DNA of 64,000 nucleotides from Leisingera sp. SS27 (lineage in GTDB: Bacteria; Pseudomonadota; Alphaproteobacteria; Rhodobacterales; Rhodobacteraceae): the NCBI RefSeq assembly GCF_028368855.1, contig NZ_JAQNCY010000005.1, forward strand, positions 124,001 to 188,000, given 5' to 3'. Both the position numbers and the translations under genes were made by a program. Below the pieces are notes generated by a model. The model was not told the origin of the DNA, did no database searches, and saw nothing but the letters and a program-made list of their open reading frames with translations. Numbering within the stretch: the first letter of the stretch is position 1; each line of letters begins with the position of its first letter. Positions 18,314 to 25,473 of the stretch are shown here, in pieces.

Positions 18314-20125
18314 CTACATCGGTGCGGGACCACCGGAAAGACCGATAATGTGATCTGATGTCAGTTCTGTCACTCCGAGAAGAAGGATTTCGAAGTCGAG
18401 CAGGTTCTCACTGCTGTCATATGCCAAAATAAGCAGACCGTCGGCATGATCATCGATGTCGATGAAAATGTCATAAAATGTGCTTCCATTGGACGGTGTC
18501 AGATCAAATCCGCCATCATCAAGAAACACGCCGATATATGCGTCATTCAAGGTGAGGGAACTGAAGTCGATCTGATCCTGAGCTCCGTCGAAATCCGTGA
18601 CCACATCCCGCTGCCCGTCGCCAGCCAGGCTGTGATCGAAATTGTTGAAGACGAAAACATCTGCATCCGCGCCGCCAGTCAGAGTATCGGACCCGAGGCC
18701 GCCACCCAGAGAGTCCGCTCCGGCACCGCCCTGCAGAAGATCATCACCGTCGTAGCCGAGCAGCGTGTCGGAGTCCGCGCCGCCCTGCAGTGTGTCGTTG
18801 CCGGAACCGCCTGTCAGCGTGTCACTGCCGGAACCGCCCACCAGCACGTCGTCGCCACTGTTGCCCCGCAGATCGTCCGCTCCGCTGCCGCCACCCAGAG
18901 AGTCCGCTCCGGCACCGCCCTGCAGAAGATCATCACCGTCGTGGCCGAGCAGCGTGTCGGCGTCCGCGCCGCCCTGCAGAGTGTCGTTACCGGATCCGCC
19001 TGTGAGCGTGTCGCTGCCGGAACCGCCCACCAGCACGTCGTCGCCACTGCTGCCCCGCAGATCGTCAGCTCCGCTGCCGCCACCCAGAGAGTCCGCTCCG
19101 GCACCGCCCTGCAGAAGATCATCACCATCGTAGCCGAGCAGCGTGTCGGCATCTTCATTGCCCTGAAGCGTGTCGTTGCCCGAACCGCCTGTCAGCGTGT
19201 CGCTGCCAGAACCGCCCACCAGCACGTCATCGCCACTGCTGCCCCGCAGGTCGTCCGCTCCGCTGCCACCACCCAGAGAGTCCGCTCCGGCACCGCCCTG
19301 CAGAAGATCATCACCGTCGTAGCCGAGCAGCGTGTCGGCGTCTTCATCGCCCTGAAGCGTGTCGTTGCCGGAACCGCCTATCAGCGTGTCGCTACCGGTA
19401 CCGCCATGCAGGAAGTCTGCACCACCGCCAGCTTGCAGCGAGTCATTCCCTTCATTGCCGGAAAGTGTATCCGCATCTTCACCGCCCGACATTACGTCTG
19501 CGCCGGCACCGCCTTCAAGAATGTCTGCACCTGCGCCACCGTACACTCTGTCGTTACCCGAACCGCCGGAAAGCACATCAGCGCCTTCCCCGCCGAACAA
19601 GGTGTCCGCGCCATCCCCGCCCTCTAGCCTGTCAGATCCGTCTCCACCAATCACTTCATCATTGCCAGCCCCCCCGGCCAGGGTATCGTCTCCGATGCCG
19701 CCATAGAGAGTATCGTCGCCGCTGTAGCCCCAAATCAGGTCGGCTCCGGACAGGCCGTTCATCGTATCGCTCGAATCCGAACCGTAAAATGTGTCGGAAC
19801 CGCCATAGAAAAGCAGCAGAAACTCCTCAGATGTTATGTTCGGGTCCGCCACGACGGTATTGGCATCAAGTGACAGGCCGGTAACAGAATAAGTAAGCTC
19901 CGTAACGCTGTAGGGCTGGTACTGATAGTAGGACTCAATTGTGCCGGTCATCGAGAAACTGTTATTCGGGCCAACTATCAGCTGGAATGCCGAACCTGCC
20001 GCAGCTCTGTATTCTGCGCGAAAGCCGTCTGCGCCTGTAAAAATGATACTGCTGCTTGTCACCAGAAATTCTGCCTGAATTTCCGTACCGACATCAAAGG
20101 GCTCATAAAAGGTGATCGTCGCCAT
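18314..20125 (-). CDS. RTX (haemolysin-type calcium-binding repeat) secreted protein
   Basis: A 603-residue protein. Residues 1-123 form a unique N-terminal domain. About 40 glycine-rich nonapeptides (GGxGxDxLx) fill roughly residues 124-492 and should fold as a calcium-binding beta-roll. The last 110 residues have 'GADADVFVF...VVTDFDGAQDQIDF', the C-terminal module of type I-secreted serralysin-like proteins, and carry the export signal. No catalytic domain is visible. Start ATG 20125 is chosen because of 'MATITFYEPFD'; 11 codons of upstream frame have little support. No type I secretion ABC/MFP genes are nearby. An adhesin, surface or enzyme-cofactor role is possible. Confidence 0.88.
   Translation of the reverse strand: MATITFYEPFDVGTEIQAEFLVTSSSIIFTGADGFRAEYRAAAGSAFQLIVGPNNSFSMTGTIESYYQYQPYSVTELTYSVTGLSLDANTVVADPNITSEEFLLLFYGGSDTFYGSDSSDTMNGLSGADLIWGYSGDDTLYGGIGDDTLAGGAGNDEVIGGDGSDRLEGGDGADTLFGGEGADVLSGGSGNDRVYGGAGADILEGGAGADVMSGGEDADTLSGNEGNDSLQAGGGADFLHGGTGSDTLIGGSGNDTLQGDEDADTLLGYDGDDLLQGGAGADSLGGGSGADDLRGSSGDDVLVGGSGSDTLTGGSGNDTLQGNEDADTLLGYDGDDLLQGGAGADSLGGGSGADDLRGSSGDDVLVGGSGSDTLTGGSGNDTLQGGADADTLLGHDGDDLLQGGAGADSLGGGSGADDLRGNSGDDVLVGGSGSDTLTGGSGNDTLQGGADSDTLLGYDGDDLLQGGAGADSLGGGLGSDTLTGGADADVFVFNNFDHSLAGDGQRDVVTDFDGAQDQIDFSSLTLNDAYIGVFLDDGGFDLTPSNGSTFYDIFIDIDDHADGLLILAYDSSENLLDFEILLLGVTELTSDHIIGLSGGPAPM
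18703..19405. repeat. 189-bp tandem repeats inside the RTX gene
   Basis: The same sequence restarts at 18703, 18892, 19081 and 19270, exactly 189 bp apart, giving three full copies and a partial fourth. Each unit encodes seven RTX nonapeptides (63 residues) and copies differ at only a few bases, which shows recent duplication and makes copy number likely to vary. Confidence 0.92.
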
Positions 20126-20158
20126 GGCGGCCTCATCAAGTTTTCGCGGGTGTATCAA

Positions 20159-20866: not shown

Positions 20867-21259
20867 TCAGTTCAATAGTGCTGCCGCTTCTGTCACCCGT
20901 TCTTCAGACAAGGGCTTGGTAAGGAACTTGCGGATCAAGGGGAACTTGGCCGCTCGTTCAAGGTCAGCCGGATTGACCGTCGTGCTGACAATCACAATAA
21001 CGGGTACCGGATCCAGGCTTTCTATCTGTGCACTGCATTGTTCCAGGAACTCGAAACCGGTGACCGGCGGCATGTTGATATCCAGGAAAATCAGCTCCGG
21101 AGGCCGCCCGACGTTCTCAATATGCTGCATTGCAGCCGCGGGCCCTTCGAACAGCTCCACTGTTTCAAACAGCTGCGATTTACCAAGAGAGCGCTTCGCG
21201 AATTTCCGGTCCATTCTGTCATCGTCAATGACATAGGCAGTGCCGCCGCATCTATTCAC
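20867..21259 (-). CDS. Single-domain response regulator, output of the stressosome module
   Basis: A 130-residue receiver domain only. The acidic pocket 'IDDD' is at residues 11-14, the phosphoacceptor Asp60 in 'IFLDINMP', the conserved Thr/Ser in 'IVSTT' and Lys115 in 'FLTKPL'. No DNA-binding or enzyme domain is attached, so it must act through a partner or as a phosphate relay. It overlaps the kinase gene by 8 bp and is the last gene of the rsb operon. Confidence 0.9.
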   Translation of the reverse strand: MNRCGGTAYVIDDDRMDRKFAKRSLGKSQLFETVELFEGPAAAMQHIENVGRPPELIFLDINMPPVTGFEFLEQCSAQIESLDPVPVIVIVSTTVNPADLERAAKFPLIRKFLTKPLSEERVTEAAALLN

Positions 21260-22430
21260 TTTTTTTCTCCTGCAGTTTCAAATCAGCACTAAAGCATGAG
21301 CCCTGTCCGGCTTCGGACTCAACCGTGATCACAGTGCCGTGGTTCTCTGCCACCCTCTTGCACAGGGCCAGCCCGATGCCAGAACCGGGGTGCTGCTCGT
21401 ACCGGTGCAGGCGTTTGAACAATTCAAAGATACGCTGCTGCATTTCCACCGGAATACCTGGCCCGCGATCGGCAACAAACAGGCGCACCCGGCCTGATGA
21501 CTCTGCCGGTCCGCAGCCGACGCTGACCTCAGCTGCCTGCCCCTCTTTCCTGTATTTCAGCGCATTTGCCAGAAGGTTGGTCAGCAGAACCCGGATTTGG
21601 AAGGGGCTTCCCATAATCACAGGCAGTTCGCCCACGTGTATCTTGGCCTGAGCGCTAACGACCAGACTGTCAATGTCCTGAAGGATTTGCTGCACCATCT
21701 CCTGCAGGTTCACTGCTTCAGGTGTAAACTGATGACCGACTACCCTTGAGTAATCCAGCACATCGTCCACCAGCTGCCGCATCCTCTGCGCTGTCCCGGT
21801 AAGATCCCTGATGATTCCAGCCGCGTCAGGCGGCAGTTCGCCTTCAAAATCCTCCAGCAGAACATCCAGAAAACAATGTATCGTGTTGATCGGTGTTTTC
21901 AGGTCGTGAGACAGTGCGTATGTGAAATTGGACTGGTCCTGATTGGTTTGAATCAGCTGCCTGTTTTTGCATTCCAACTCCTCTGCGCGGAATTGAATCT
22001 CTGCTGTCCTCTTCTGCACCTCTGCATCCAACTCATCCCTCTGGCGGGCCAGTTCAAAGGTGATGTCGCGCAGTTCTTCCTCAACCCGGCGCCGTTCCGC
22101 GACTTCTTTTCTCAATTTGGCAGTGCCGCTGACGTACCCGCGCAGCGCCATGTCATAAACTGCCATCCCTTCCAGAAAGAAATCCTCTGCCCGGTCAAGG
22201 CACAGCCCCGATCCGCCCGGCGCCTGCAAGCGCTCCCTCAGTCCCGAAAAATGGAAAAGCCCAAAGTCGGACAATGTCACATTGGCCGCCAGGGCAAGGC
22301 GGGCTGCTTCATATGCCGCCTCCAGCTGCCTGGCATCGCCGCTGTCCATATACGCAGCCATGGCAGTGGAATAGCGGCGGGCCGCCGCCATCATGGCGTC
22401 TTGCGTGCGGGAGGCGTCCACACTGCTCAT
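21252..22430 (-). CDS. Histidine kinase with RsbU-like N-terminal domain
   Basis: A 392-residue soluble kinase. Residues 15-90 ('ARRYSTAMAAYMDSGDARQLEAAYEAARLAL') resemble the RsbT-binding N-terminal domain of the phosphatase RsbU. A coiled coil (about 105-165) follows, then the HisKA box 'SHDLKTPI' with His175, and an HATPase with 'NLLANALKY', 'DRGPGIP' and 'GSGIGLALCKRV'. The architecture suggests RsbT released from the stressosome activates this kinase instead of a PP2C phosphatase, which then phosphorylates the adjacent receiver. It overlaps rsbX by 4 bp and the regulator by 8 bp. Confidence 0.85.
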   Translation of the reverse strand: MSSVDASRTQDAMMAAARRYSTAMAAYMDSGDARQLEAAYEAARLALAANVTLSDFGLFHFSGLRERLQAPGGSGLCLDRAEDFFLEGMAVYDMALRGYVSGTAKLRKEVAERRRVEEELRDITFELARQRDELDAEVQKRTAEIQFRAEELECKNRQLIQTNQDQSNFTYALSHDLKTPINTIHCFLDVLLEDFEGELPPDAAGIIRDLTGTAQRMRQLVDDVLDYSRVVGHQFTPEAVNLQEMVQQILQDIDSLVVSAQAKIHVGELPVIMGSPFQIRVLLTNLLANALKYRKEGQAAEVSVGCGPAESSGRVRLFVADRGPGIPVEMQQRIFELFKRLHRYEQHPGSGIGLALCKRVAENHGTVITVESEAGQGSCFSADLKLQEKKSE

Positions 22431-23074
22431 TCCACCCTCCCGCAGTGAGCAGCAATCAGGATTGTCCGGTCATCATTTTCCCTGCCAAATTCATCTAGAC
22501 AAGATGACGCCCACTCTTGAGGCGGGACTTGAATAAAGGGCAACGCGTTCCGGAATTGCCGGGAGATCCCGTCAGACGCAAGGATCAGAACGTGCTGCCT
22601 AGGAAATTTTTGCGACTGACAGTAAATGCCAGGGAAATGCACGCCCAAGGTGCCTCCCTTCTGCATAACCGCGCTGCTGTCCGTGCTGACAGTCTGCATC
22701 CGGCAGATTATACCTTCCACATCCCCAACAGCGGCCCATTCGACAGTCTCGTGACCCGGGTCGATCAGCGCCACAGCCAGCGCCGCTCCCCGAGAGCCCT
22801 GCAACCGCGCATGGGCGGCCGTGAACAACTCCGCGATCCCTCCGACAGGTCCTGCTGCCAGTTCCGCCAGACAGGCGTTTGCCGCGTCCCGTGCATGCGG
22901 GCCGCTGCCGACGCCATCTGCCAAGGCAACCAGCAGCCTTCCGCCTGCCCGTCTGAGCAGATATCCGTCGCCGCAAACGGTGCATCCCGCCTTGGAGGCC
23001 TGGGCTACTGCCCAATCAATCCGGGATCTGCCTGTGCCGAATGCAATACTGCCGCCTGCTGCATTTACCGCCAT
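22427..23074 (-). CDS. rsbX: RsbX-like PP2C serine phosphatase
   Basis: A 215-residue SpoIIE/PP2C phosphatase. Metal-binding aspartates are in 'VCGDGYLL' and 'VALADGVGSG', then 'GDVEG' and 'ENDDRTILIA' near the C-terminus. By analogy to Bacillus RsbX it would dephosphorylate RsbS and RsbR and so reset the stressosome. It overlaps rsbT upstream by 10 bp and the kinase downstream by 4 bp. Confidence 0.82.
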   Translation of the reverse strand: MAVNAAGGSIAFGTGRSRIDWAVAQASKAGCTVCGDGYLLRRAGGRLLVALADGVGSGPHARDAANACLAELAAGPVGGIAELFTAAHARLQGSRGAALAVALIDPGHETVEWAAVGDVEGIICRMQTVSTDSSAVMQKGGTLGVHFPGIYCQSQKFPRQHVLILASDGISRQFRNALPFIQVPPQEWASSCLDEFGRENDDRTILIAAHCGRVE

Positions 23075-23481
23075 TTCGCCACCGTCACAATGAGCCCGCG
23101 CCCAGGCTCTGAGCGGATCTCGAAATCATCAACGATCCGCCGTGTGCCCGGCAGGCCCAGACCGAGACTGTTCCCGGTTGAATACCCGTCCTGCATAGCC
23201 AGCTCGACATCTTCCACCCCGGGCCCCCGGTCCCGCGCTGCCACCTTAATCCCGAACCGAGTACCGCTGGCGATAGTGCACAGCTCGATCTCACCTTCGT
23301 CGGCATATTTCACAATGTTGCGTGCAAGTTCTGAAACTGCAGTTGCGATCAAGGCTTGATCAGGCCTGCTGAATCCGATCTCCACAGCCAGCCTGCGTGC
23401 CAGCTGGCGCGCTGCCACGACATCGCTGTCGCAGGATACTGGCTGCAGCACGGCAGAAGGCTCCATCACGGGCACATTCAT
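23065..23481 (-). CDS. rsbT: RsbT-like serine/threonine kinase (switch kinase)
   Basis: A 138-residue GHKL ATPase with the N-box 'AVSELARNIVKYA', 'DRGPGV' and 'GLGLPGTRRIVDDFEIRSE'. RsbT kinases phosphorylate the STAS domains of RsbS and RsbR and then leave the complex to activate an RsbU-type partner. It lies directly after rsbS (4-bp overlap) and before rsbX (10-bp overlap). The kinase downstream carries the expected RsbU-like docking domain. Confidence 0.87.
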   Translation of the reverse strand: MNVPVMEPSAVLQPVSCDSDVVAARQLARRLAVEIGFSRPDQALIATAVSELARNIVKYADEGEIELCTIASGTRFGIKVAARDRGPGVEDVELAMQDGYSTGNSLGLGLPGTRRIVDDFEIRSEPGRGLIVTVAKWR

Positions 23482-23870
23482 GACCTGTCCCGCAAGATTT
23501 CCATTCCGTGGTCCAGGTTCAGCGCCGTAGGAACACTCTCCAGGTTGAGCCCAAGGAGCACCATTGCCATGGCAATTTCCGGCCGGATGCCAACAATTGC
23601 AATCCTCGCACCGCGCAGGGAAACAGATGCTGCGATATCACTCAGCATCCTCGTGCTGAAACTGTCGATGACATCCAGAAGACTGACGTCCAGAATAACT
23701 TTGGACGCCGCACGGCGGGACACTTCGGTCAGGATTCTGTGCTGCATTTCCTGCATATCACTGTCTGACAGTTCTTCCTGAACCGCCACGATCAGCATGT
23801 CTTCCTGACTGATTATTGGAACGCGCCGCCCCACCTCAACGCTCCAGTAGCCTGCGAGCGGTTGCGACAC
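23478..23870 (-). CDS. rsbS: RsbS-like STAS-domain stressosome scaffold
   Basis: A single STAS domain. 'VILDVSLLDVIDSFSTRML' places Ser70 at the position of the RsbS phosphorylation site (Ser59 in Bacillus), and 'LRGARIAIVGIRPEIAMAMVLLGL' is typical. The listed start is a GTG overlapping the end of rsbR by 35 bp. A second GTG at 23834, just past the rsbR stop codon and giving 118 residues, matches the length and N-terminus of known RsbS better. Both have a GGAG upstream, so the start is open. Confidence 0.87.
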   Translation of the reverse strand: MSQPLAGYWSVEVGRRVPIISQEDMLIVAVQEELSDSDMQEMQHRILTEVSRRAASKVILDVSLLDVIDSFSTRMLSDIAASVSLRGARIAIVGIRPEIAMAMVLLGLNLESVPTALNLDHGMEILRDRS

Positions 23871-24729
23871 CGCGCTCCAAGTCGCCAGCGGGGTTCAGAG
23901 CATCGCCTGTCACACCGATCTTGACCAGCGCCTGTGCCACTTCTGCGCTGATACCGGTCAGCACCGATTGCGCCCCCATCAGACGGGTTGCTGTCATGGT
24001 CTGGATCAGATGATTGGCTACCATGCTGTCCACCGCCGCGACCCCGGTGATATCGAGCACCACGACGCGGGCATCCTGATCCCGGATCGCATCGAGGATT
24101 TGCATTGTCAGCAGGCGCGACCGGTGGCTGTCCAGCACTCCGACCACAGGCACCAGCAACAGCCCCTCCTGCAGGCGCAATGCCGGTGTCGGCAATTCAC
24201 TCATCTGCCGTTCGCGCTGTTCAATCGCTTCCGTTCGCGCGGCTGAAAATGCCTCAATGGTGATTGCCTGGTGACAGGCCGCCATCTTGCGCAGCGCCCG
24301 CTGAGTTTCCAGGGCTTCTGCCGGCTCATTCGTTTCATTCTGAATCAGATCGCAGATCCGGTTGATGGAGTACGTGTAAAGGCTCAGATAAAGGCTTGGA
24401 GAGACACCGTGAGCTTCATTGAAAATTCCAGCAAGCATGCGACCATCAAAATACTTCTGATCAAGACCAGCATCGTAAAGTTCAAGAAGATGACGCCTCT
24501 GCTCCTCCATCACCACCTGCATTCCGGAAGCGTGCCCCCGAACGCCGCGACGGTCATAGCCGCCTTCCCGTGCATAGAAGTCTTGCAGAATTGCTTCGAT
24601 ATTCTGCTCAGCCAGCGGCAGAAGCTTCGAAACCCGGGCCCGGTCGTCCTGACTGACGTCGAACCAGCCCCAAACTTCCTGCAGCCCCTTTTCGGGGGGC
24701 AGTATTGTCGAAGAAATGACCTCGTTCAT
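23836..24729 (-). CDS. rsbR: RsbR-like stressosome sensor (globin-type N-terminus plus STAS)
   Basis: A 297-residue protein. Residues 10-170 have the all-helical pattern of globin-type sensor domains ('GVSPSLYLSLYTYSINRI'). Residues 185-285 are a STAS domain with 'VLDITGVAAVDSMVANHL', where Ser235 takes the place of the phosphorylatable Thr171 of Bacillus RsbRA. His107 sits directly before the 'GVSPSLY' segment, not four residues ahead as in haem-binding globin sensors, so haem binding is uncertain. ATG 24729 has GAGGGTCC upstream. It is the first gene of a six-gene overlapping operon. Confidence 0.85.
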   Translation of the reverse strand: MNEVISSTILPPEKGLQEVWGWFDVSQDDRARVSKLLPLAEQNIEAILQDFYAREGGYDRRGVRGHASGMQVVMEEQRRHLLELYDAGLDQKYFDGRMLAGIFNEAHGVSPSLYLSLYTYSINRICDLIQNETNEPAEALETQRALRKMAACHQAITIEAFSAARTEAIEQRERQMSELPTPALRLQEGLLLVPVVGVLDSHRSRLLTMQILDAIRDQDARVVVLDITGVAAVDSMVANHLIQTMTATRLMGAQSVLTGISAEVAQALVKIGVTGDALNPAGDLERGVATARRLLER

Positions 24730-24892: not shown

Positions 24893-25473
24893 GAACTAGC
24901 CCTCCGCTATTCTGGGAAACGGAGGACTGCGAATGGCGAACAAGGGGTACAAACCAAAGGAAATAGTTCAGCAGTTTCCGCAAGTTGATGTGCTTGCAGG
25001 GCAAGGAATGCATCGGCTGGACGCGATCCGCGAGGTTTGCATGACCGAACAGACGTATTATCGCTGGCGAAAGCAGTATGGCGGGATGGGAACCGAGCAG
25101 CTTAAGGAACTCAAGCCGCTGCAGAAAGAGAACGAGCGGCTTTGGAAAGCGGTTTCAAAGGTGACCTTGGACAAATTAATCCTGAAGGAAGCCGCACGGG
25201 GAACTTCTGAGTCCCGCCCGTCGCCGCGCCTGCATCGAGCTGATACGCAGCGAGATGAAAGTGCCGGAACGCCGGATTTTCCGGGTGCTGGGACAGCATC
25301 GATCAACACAAAGGAGTCAACGGCAAGGCCAGGAAGAACGAGCCATTGAAGGCGCCATTGGTTCGAGCCCAATGACGAGTGACCGGCTCGTAGCGGACAT
25401 GATTGAACTGGCCAGGCAGTCCGGTGGCAACCGCAGCCGTCATCTACCGGCTGTGAAACTCAGTGTGTCCTGA
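24893..25473 (+). pseudogene. IS3-family insertion sequence remnant (orfA plus truncated orfB)
   Basis: The orfA product from ATG 24933 has the IS3 helix-turn-helix 'EVCMTEQTYYRWRKQYGGMG' and the leucine-zipper-like 'KPLQKENERLWKAVSKVTLDKLILKEA'. From about 25205 the orfB frame begins with 'SPARRRACIE'-like residues and 'VPERRIFRVLGQHRSTQR', then loses homology after 'DRLVADMIELARQ' at about 25430. The integrase (DDE) domain is absent, so the element is dead. The bases near 24893 may be the left inverted-repeat end; no right end was found. Confidence 0.85.

Follow-up and report, generated by a model that had tools for sequence, protein, structure and literature searches.

A stressosome operon of Leisingera sp. 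SS27 with a histidine kinase and a receiver as its likely output

In a 64,000-nucleotide stretch of the Leisingera sp. SS27 genome (contig NZ_JAQNCY010000005.1, positions 124,001 to 188,000; the whole stretch is called the window below), six genes follow one another on the minus strand from 24729 to 20867: rsbR, rsbS, rsbT, rsbX, a gene for a soluble histidine kinase (HK) and one for a single-domain receiver (REC). We consider it likely that this operon is a minimal stressosome module whose output is the cytoplasmic two-component pair, with RsbT docking on HK. Profile comparison shows that residues 19-95 of HK share homology with the domain by which RsbU docks RsbT. The computations reported here establish this homology together with the domains and catalytic residues of the six proteins, the conservation of the operon and the co-occurrence of its parts.

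In the mechanism that we favour, the stressosome core would consist of RsbR and RsbS, with RsbT held on it. A stimulus sensed by the globin domain of RsbR would lead RsbT to phosphorylate serines of both core proteins, after which RsbT would come free. It would then dock on the RsbU_N-type domain of HK and order a helix that continues into the DHp helix, which would switch autophosphorylation of His175, more likely on than off. The phosphoryl group would pass from His175 to Asp60 of the single-domain receiver, and the core would be returned to its resting state by RsbX. In this scheme we infer that RsbT binds HK, in which direction it acts, that this particular receiver is phosphorylated, and all steps past it.

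Results

An RsbU-type docking domain on the histidine kinase

A preliminary description of this DNA, made from its letters without database searches, had likened the N-terminus of HK to the docking domain of RsbU and named a profile comparison with RsbU_N as a check. Taken alone, the HK of the window fell under the Pfam cut-off for RsbU_N (21.2 against 25.5 bits, E 3.2e-4; 24.2 bits in a six-frame search). The orthologue group, on the other hand, bore the resemblance out: a profile of the N-termini of 13 aligned HKs matched PDB structures of Bacillus subtilis RsbU at E 4e-8 (2j70) to 3.5e-7, the next match after RsbU lying at E 0.09, and each of the 13 HKs had a match to Pfam RsbU_N of E 0.1 or lower (lowest 2.1e-9). 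The cut-off itself was exceeded at the loci L058 (26.7 bits) and L091 (39.7 bits).

The presumed RsbT-docking domain, placed by Pfam at HK residues 19-95 (22146..22376, minus strand, as are all features of the operon), is followed by a helical linker (residues 96-165; 21936..22145), the HisKA/DHp domain with His175 (Pfam HisKA, residues 166-229; 21744..21935) and the HATPase_c catalytic domain (Pfam, residues 277-387; 21270..21602). Pfam recognised no other sensor domain in HK. In the AlphaFold2 model of HK, a continuous helix spans residues 75-195, and the linker joins the docking domain to the DHp helix without interruption; the means of 10-residue blocks were 85-95 over residues 81-160, with a predicted template-modelling score of 0.48 for the whole model.

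One result speaks against carrying the RsbU model over to HK unchanged. The RsbT-RsbU interface involves R19, R23 and N24 of RsbT and E24, Y28, I74 and I78 of RsbU, and a salt bridge joins RsbU R91 to RsbT D92 (PMC12143880). In the profile alignment, HK has Ala33, Glu37, Leu86 and Ala90 at the four RsbU positions, so most of its interface residues, and with them the contact surface, are not those of RsbU. On the RsbT side, where the interface positions were placed with a B. subtilis RsbT sequence, Arg25, Arg29 and Asp98 are the counterparts of R19, R23 and D92 and are invariant in 12/12 RsbT proteins; the counterpart of N24, Arg30, is variable. The invariant residues may be kept for binding RsbS as well.

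The sign of the coupling is not readable from sequence, and a variant compatible with our explanation reverses it: RsbT would lock the kinase off or in phosphatase mode, and the resting stressosome would permit signalling. With the RsbU sequence continued past the aligned part of the profile match, invariant Leu106 of HK lies about one helical turn beyond Leu90-Arg91 of RsbU, and the register of the linker may differ between the two. In B. subtilis, however, RsbT activates RsbU (PMC12143880), and we think a reversed sign unlikely.

Gene boundaries and catalytic residues

All six overlapping genes named in the preliminary description are present between 20867 and 24729, and Protoglobin, STAS (twice), HATPase_c_2, SpoIIE, HisKA, HATPase_c and Response_reg exceeded their Pfam cut-offs in the respective proteins; none of the NCBIfam models listed attained its own cut-off (for HK and the receiver, among the best 25 listed). 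The first gene, rsbR (23836..24729), encodes 297 residues with a Protoglobin-type sensor at residues 17-164 (50.5 bits) and a STAS domain at residues 182-273 (55 bits). It is followed by rsbS (23478..23834), which encodes a STAS scaffold (46.3 bits) of 118 residues if read from GTG 23834 and of 130 residues in a longer reading from GTG 23870. As GTG or ATG stands at exactly the place of GTG 23834 in 10 of 11 loci, the start is probably this codon, directly after the rsbR stop; in L057, an ATG lies there or at most two codons away. The product of rsbT (23065..23481) is the switch serine kinase of 138 residues (HATPase_c_2, 42.2 bits), and that of rsbX (22427..23074) a single-domain SpoIIE-type PP2C feedback phosphatase of 215 residues (SpoIIE, 35 bits against a cut-off of 25). 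HK (21252..22430) is a soluble protein of 392 residues (HATPase_c, 82.5 bits; HisKA, 52 bits), and the receiver (20867..21259) has 130 residues, a single Response_reg domain (52.7 bits) without output domain, and Asp60 as phosphoacceptor. Overlaps amount to 4 bases between rsbS and rsbT, 10 between rsbT and rsbX, 4 between rsbX and the HK gene and 8 between the HK and receiver genes. A promoter scan returned four sites against a shuffle mean of 1.3 and a terminator scan four against 3.1; none of these was used.

The residues on which each protein would depend are conserved. RsbS keeps a DSF/DSY motif in 11/11 aligned rows, the serine of which we take to be the phosphosite. E51, R54, N55 and D84 of RsbT, like its three interface residues above, are invariant in 12/12 and its ATP-site motifs are intact, while RsbX retains the DG, GD, DG and DD motifs with the metal-binding aspartates in 11/11. 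With the sensor and STAS domain of RsbR, the STAS domain of RsbS, the ATP site of RsbT and the PP2C domain of RsbX, the four proteins would make up a complete RsbR-RsbS-RsbT-RsbX (RSTX) module. Ser201 and Ser235 in the STAS domain of RsbR are found in 10/10 rows and align, as phosphorylatable residues, with the sites named Ser199 and Thr233 in Vibrio vulnificus RsbR (PMC9237108), where chain B of 7o0i is taken as that protein. In the two-component pair, His175 is nearly invariant in the 13 aligned HKs, and D12, D13, D60, T93 and K115 of the receiver are invariant in 11/11 rows. His175 and Asp60 are the residues between which the preliminary description placed phosphotransfer, and the HisKA histidine, the HATPase domain and the Asp/Thr/Lys set of the receiver are those expected of a two-component system.

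The kept ATP-site motifs of RsbT also speak for another route, in which RsbT acts on HK, or on the receiver, mainly as a serine kinase and the N-terminal domain of HK merely recruits the substrate. Such a route has been proposed for downstream sensor kinases without RsbU_N, for example V. vulnificus D1 (PMC9237108). Here, however, the RsbU-type docking domain is present on HK, and activation of RsbU comes from the contacts as such (PMC12143880), which makes serine phosphorylation as the main input improbable next to docking of RsbT on HK.

The globin sensor of RsbR

The sensor domain of RsbR (24238..24681, minus strand, from a HMMER alignment to HemAT 1or4) has Asn104 (codon 24418-24420) in line with HemAT His123 and Tyr52 in line with HemAT Tyr70, residues that we take to be the proximal haem histidine and the distal tyrosine. 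The proximal histidine of a haem-based, O2-sensing RsbR thus seems to have been lost. The RsbR N-terminus is similar across 10 aligned rows and the tyrosine is kept in all of them; the proximal position is Asn in 7/10 (window, L047-L051 and L054) and His in 3/10 (L052, L053 and L057), and RsbR of L046, outside this alignment, likewise has Asn. Chain B of 7o0i, taken as V. vulnificus RsbR, has His at this position. We took 7o0i to be the structure of PMC9237108, printed there as 7O01, because its chain a has 115 residues, as given for V. vulnificus RsbS.

According to Jia et al. 2016 (PMC4976288), both the proximal His and the distal Tyr are retained in every sensor-globin RsbR of their Vibrio brasiliensis clade, a rule to which the present RsbR lineage would be an exception. 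Its globin is probably non-haem, as in Bacillus, although another side chain may ligate haem. With Asn in place of the proximal His, this lineage probably responds to a signal other than O2 sensed through canonical haem. We found no mention of an Asn at the proximal haem position in the passages of the stressosome literature that we examined. At L046:10931-11824 (minus strand), rsbR contains one early in-frame stop, real or a sequencing error, in an otherwise complete operon.

RsbU candidates in the rest of the genome

The preliminary description also suggested that HK takes the place of the RsbU phosphatase. In a six-frame search of the genome, no second RsbU_N besides that of HK appeared at E 1. 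Four SpoIIE-type matches were found: RsbX, one REC + SpoIIE protein (L002) and two PP2C proteins. The three other than RsbX have no RsbU_N at E 0.01, and on these searches a second RsbU able to bind RsbT was rejected. As HK holds the sole RsbU_N match found in the genome and none lies on the three other SpoIIE/PP2C phosphatases, it plausibly stands in for RsbU, in line with that proposal.

The REC + SpoIIE protein and a lone HATPase_c_2 protein (L006) look like RbaY and RbaW of Rhodobacter capsulatus, and the target might be the chromosomal RbaV-RbaW partner switch: HK or the receiver would drive the RbaY-type REC-SpoIIE phosphatase and reach sigma control by a detour. RbaY of R. capsulatus consists of REC and PP2C domains, and as of 2014 no sensor kinase was known for it; RsbY of B. 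cereus is activated by a hybrid kinase (PMC3999984). Yet both genes lie on a contig other than that of the operon, rbaVWY has close homologues in other Rhodobacterales (PMC3999984) whereas 9 of the 21 genomes from this genus have the stressosome, and the operon brings its own receiver. A link from HK to the RbaY-like protein is possible but unsupported, and we regard the detour as very doubtful.

Conservation and distribution of the operon

The six genes stand in order at 10 of 14 loci compared (window and L046-L054), which argues that the order is not due to chance. The other four loci are L055, with kinase and receiver only; L056, which begins inside rsbX at a contig end and has the kinase together with a receiver of another subtype; L057, with rsbR, rsbS, rsbT, rsbX and a kinase-like gene but no receiver; and L058 (3.4 kb fetched), where rsbS, rsbT and rsbX adjoin an RsbU_N kinase with fused receiver. 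In the kinase-like protein of L057 (L057:9576-10568), RsbU_N (22.6 bits) and the linker are kept and the kinase core is not recognised by Pfam; at this one locus, the joint absence of kinase core and receiver is suggestive of their coupling. At L055:9943-12218 (minus strand), the kinase match runs in two frames near a contig end, and a transposase-like fragment, seen by eye, adjoins it.

For the six genes, the ratio of nonsynonymous to synonymous substitution rates between the window and L046, L047 or L049 was 0.07-0.25 (without RsbR of L046, which has an in-frame stop). Over nine loci, the pairwise distances within the six protein sets correlated at 0.94-0.98, as expected for joint inheritance. 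The flanking genes differ between lineages, even within the genus, and are partly shared by close relatives (window, L046 and L047; L048-L050). The version carried by the genus members G402 and G406 is 40-42% identical in the kinase, less than the version of G250 from another genus (51%), and the cassette probably moves horizontally.

Searches of the family, class and phylum were samples in which many genomes were scored on the best 9-11 first-look candidates, and absences hold at that sensitivity. Within the genus, 9/21 genomes have the docking domain of HK and the same nine have RsbT, both being absent from the other 12. Among 394 genomes of the family, nearly all of different genera, the docking domain was found in five and RsbT (E 1e-10) in 13, with four strong matches (8.4e-43 or lower) and nine weaker ones. 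All four genomes with strong RsbT carry HK and are four of the five with HK; in the fifth, G246, the kinase match lies near a contig end and is split over two reading frames, and RsbT has no match. In the class sample, the docking domain was found in 2/385 genomes, the own genome included, and in the phylum sample, searched with a profile, in 8/398, including the own genome and G250.

Nine RsbU_N proteins were scanned in the other six genomes of the phylum sample (eight matched places and one neighbour): five histidine kinases, three HD-domain proteins and one GGDEF protein. In three of the kinases, a receiver domain extends to where the fetched sequence ends, one is cut inside the kinase, and one (L091) is a complete, simple RsbU_N kinase that adjoins an open reading frame (ORF) in which an RsbT-like motif is present. 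Kinases that carry RsbU_N are uncommon but widely distributed. The fusions to HD-type domains are those of L089, L090 and L092, and the fusion to GGDEF is at L094:617-1492; both kinds would be additional effectors bearing a docking domain of RsbT type. A scan of genome contigs gave 12 loci. One is a full-length orthologue (L021), the 14,037 bases of which match the beginning of L047 exactly, and the other 11 matched in the kinase part alone. Viral contigs searched with the HK alignment yielded kinase cores only, 19/19 reported matches beginning at HK residue 109 or beyond; in plasmid records, the docking domain had no match and the operon DNA none except one 84-base stretch.

That HK and the receiver are an independent two-component system travelling with the stressosome, RsbT acting elsewhere, is highly improbable. 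In its favour, gene neighbourhood alone is not interaction, the cassette, with its changing flanks, seems to move as a unit, and G246 has a kinase, albeit split, without an RsbT match. Against it, the sole input-like domain of HK is of the RsbU docking type, no other RsbU_N was found in the genome, and kinase and RsbT are present together or absent together in every genome of the genus sample.

Neighbouring genes and the search for a target

A conserved neighbour gene that might be the target of the receiver was sought around the operon loci; as the flanks differ between lineages inside one genus, we propose no flanking gene. At L055, the receiver is followed by a small HATPase_c protein without further recognised domain. 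This protein was considered as a relay phosphotransferase and set aside: it occurs at one locus, next to the split kinase match, and a search of the genus with it hits kinases in 21/21 genomes. In the window, a short ORF that by eye resembles an IS3-type transposase orfA (24933-25349) lies about 200 bases upstream of rsbR and divergent from it. Downstream of the receiver, on the same strand, 18314-20158 encodes a 614-residue protein of GGxGxD-like repeats, by eye similar to the calcium-binding repeats of RTX type, and six of the 14 loci have related ORFs.

A second stressosome lineage in the family

The nine family genomes with weaker RsbT matches appear to carry a different stressosome, the RsbR of which has an RsbRD_N sensor where tested (L064 and L123). 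Five of the nine loci were fetched (L122-L126). In 4/4 scanned (L122-L125), an RsbT-like HATPase is encoded in a single ORF together with HisKA_2 and another HATPase (L122:3622-4785, L123:3669-4892, L124:2975-4198 on the minus strand and L125:3750-4907). The ORF beside the fusion is HATPase-SpoIIE in 2/2 scanned (L123 and L125), and at L126 the fusion ORF was not seen in the filtered ORF listing. No description of the fusion was found in a limited literature search without full texts. The fusion lends independent, indirect support to the idea that RsbT-type proteins can speak to histidine kinases, and one may conjecture from its class that the HisKA_2 kinase might feed the alphaproteobacterial general stress response.

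Discussion

If RsbT docks on HK as we propose, a single cassette of six genes couples serine-kinase partner switching to a histidine-aspartate relay, and it would also be a cheap test bed for the gating of any dimeric effector by RsbT through a helical linker. If a Gram-negative stressosome has lost its haem ligand here, the O2-sensing role proposed for globin-type RsbR would not be universal. More tentatively, Rhodobacteraceae may have linked stressosomes to histidine kinases twice, once through the docking domain, with a globin that lacks the haem ligand and a signal other than O2, and once through the RsbT-like/HisKA_2 fusion. In that case, RsbT-type ATPases would serve histidine kinases generally as an input module, and an undescribed phosphorelay would be entered at the single-domain receiver.

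The preliminary description had held that a roseobacter version would be a distinct wiring, a claim that earlier work does not support. Heinz et al. 2022 described RSTX modules with globin-coupled RsbR and eleven downstream architectures, among them HisKA and REC genes after RSTX in Ruegeria, reported RsbU_N-like domains on proteins that certain alpha-, beta- and gammaproteobacteria encode downstream, and argued that the downstream proteins contribute to stressosome signalling (PMC9237108). A later study cites Heinz et al., models an RsbU_N histidine kinase and proposes control through a coiled coil (PMC12143880). The operon is therefore a further case of a described wiring. Added here are, for this lineage, tests of docking-domain homology, co-occurrence and selection, together with the apparent loss of the proximal histidine.

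Among the closest known systems are the Ruegeria-type modules, which share the globin-type RsbR, the RSTX order, the downstream HisKA and REC genes and, on some alphaproteobacterial downstream proteins, RsbU_N (PMC9237108). The globin sensors of the Heinz modules are described as haem-binding, whereas the proximal His is Asn here. In V. vulnificus, RSTX is likewise followed by two-component genes, D1 and D2; no positive result was obtained for an RsbT-D1 interaction (PMC9237108), and D1/D2 are thought to act on cyclic di-GMP (PMC10014275). An RsbU_N kinase annotated 'NreB' (MBI3545564.1) joins RsbU_N to a histidine kinase through a coiled-coil linker; it differs from HK in being gammaproteobacterial, and the passages of PMC12143880 considered here mention no receiver for it. 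Moorella MtG (RsbU_N-GAF-GGDEF) is another non-phosphatase effector with RsbU_N controlled by RsbT, but its output is cyclic di-GMP and not phosphotransfer (PMC12143880). Finally, the RsbRST-RsbU-RsbX system of B. subtilis shares with the operon the RSTX logic and the docking-domain family on the effector. The operon described here, however, contains no sigma factor, RsbV or RsbW, and the effector that is a PP2C phosphatase in B. subtilis is a histidine kinase in Leisingera.

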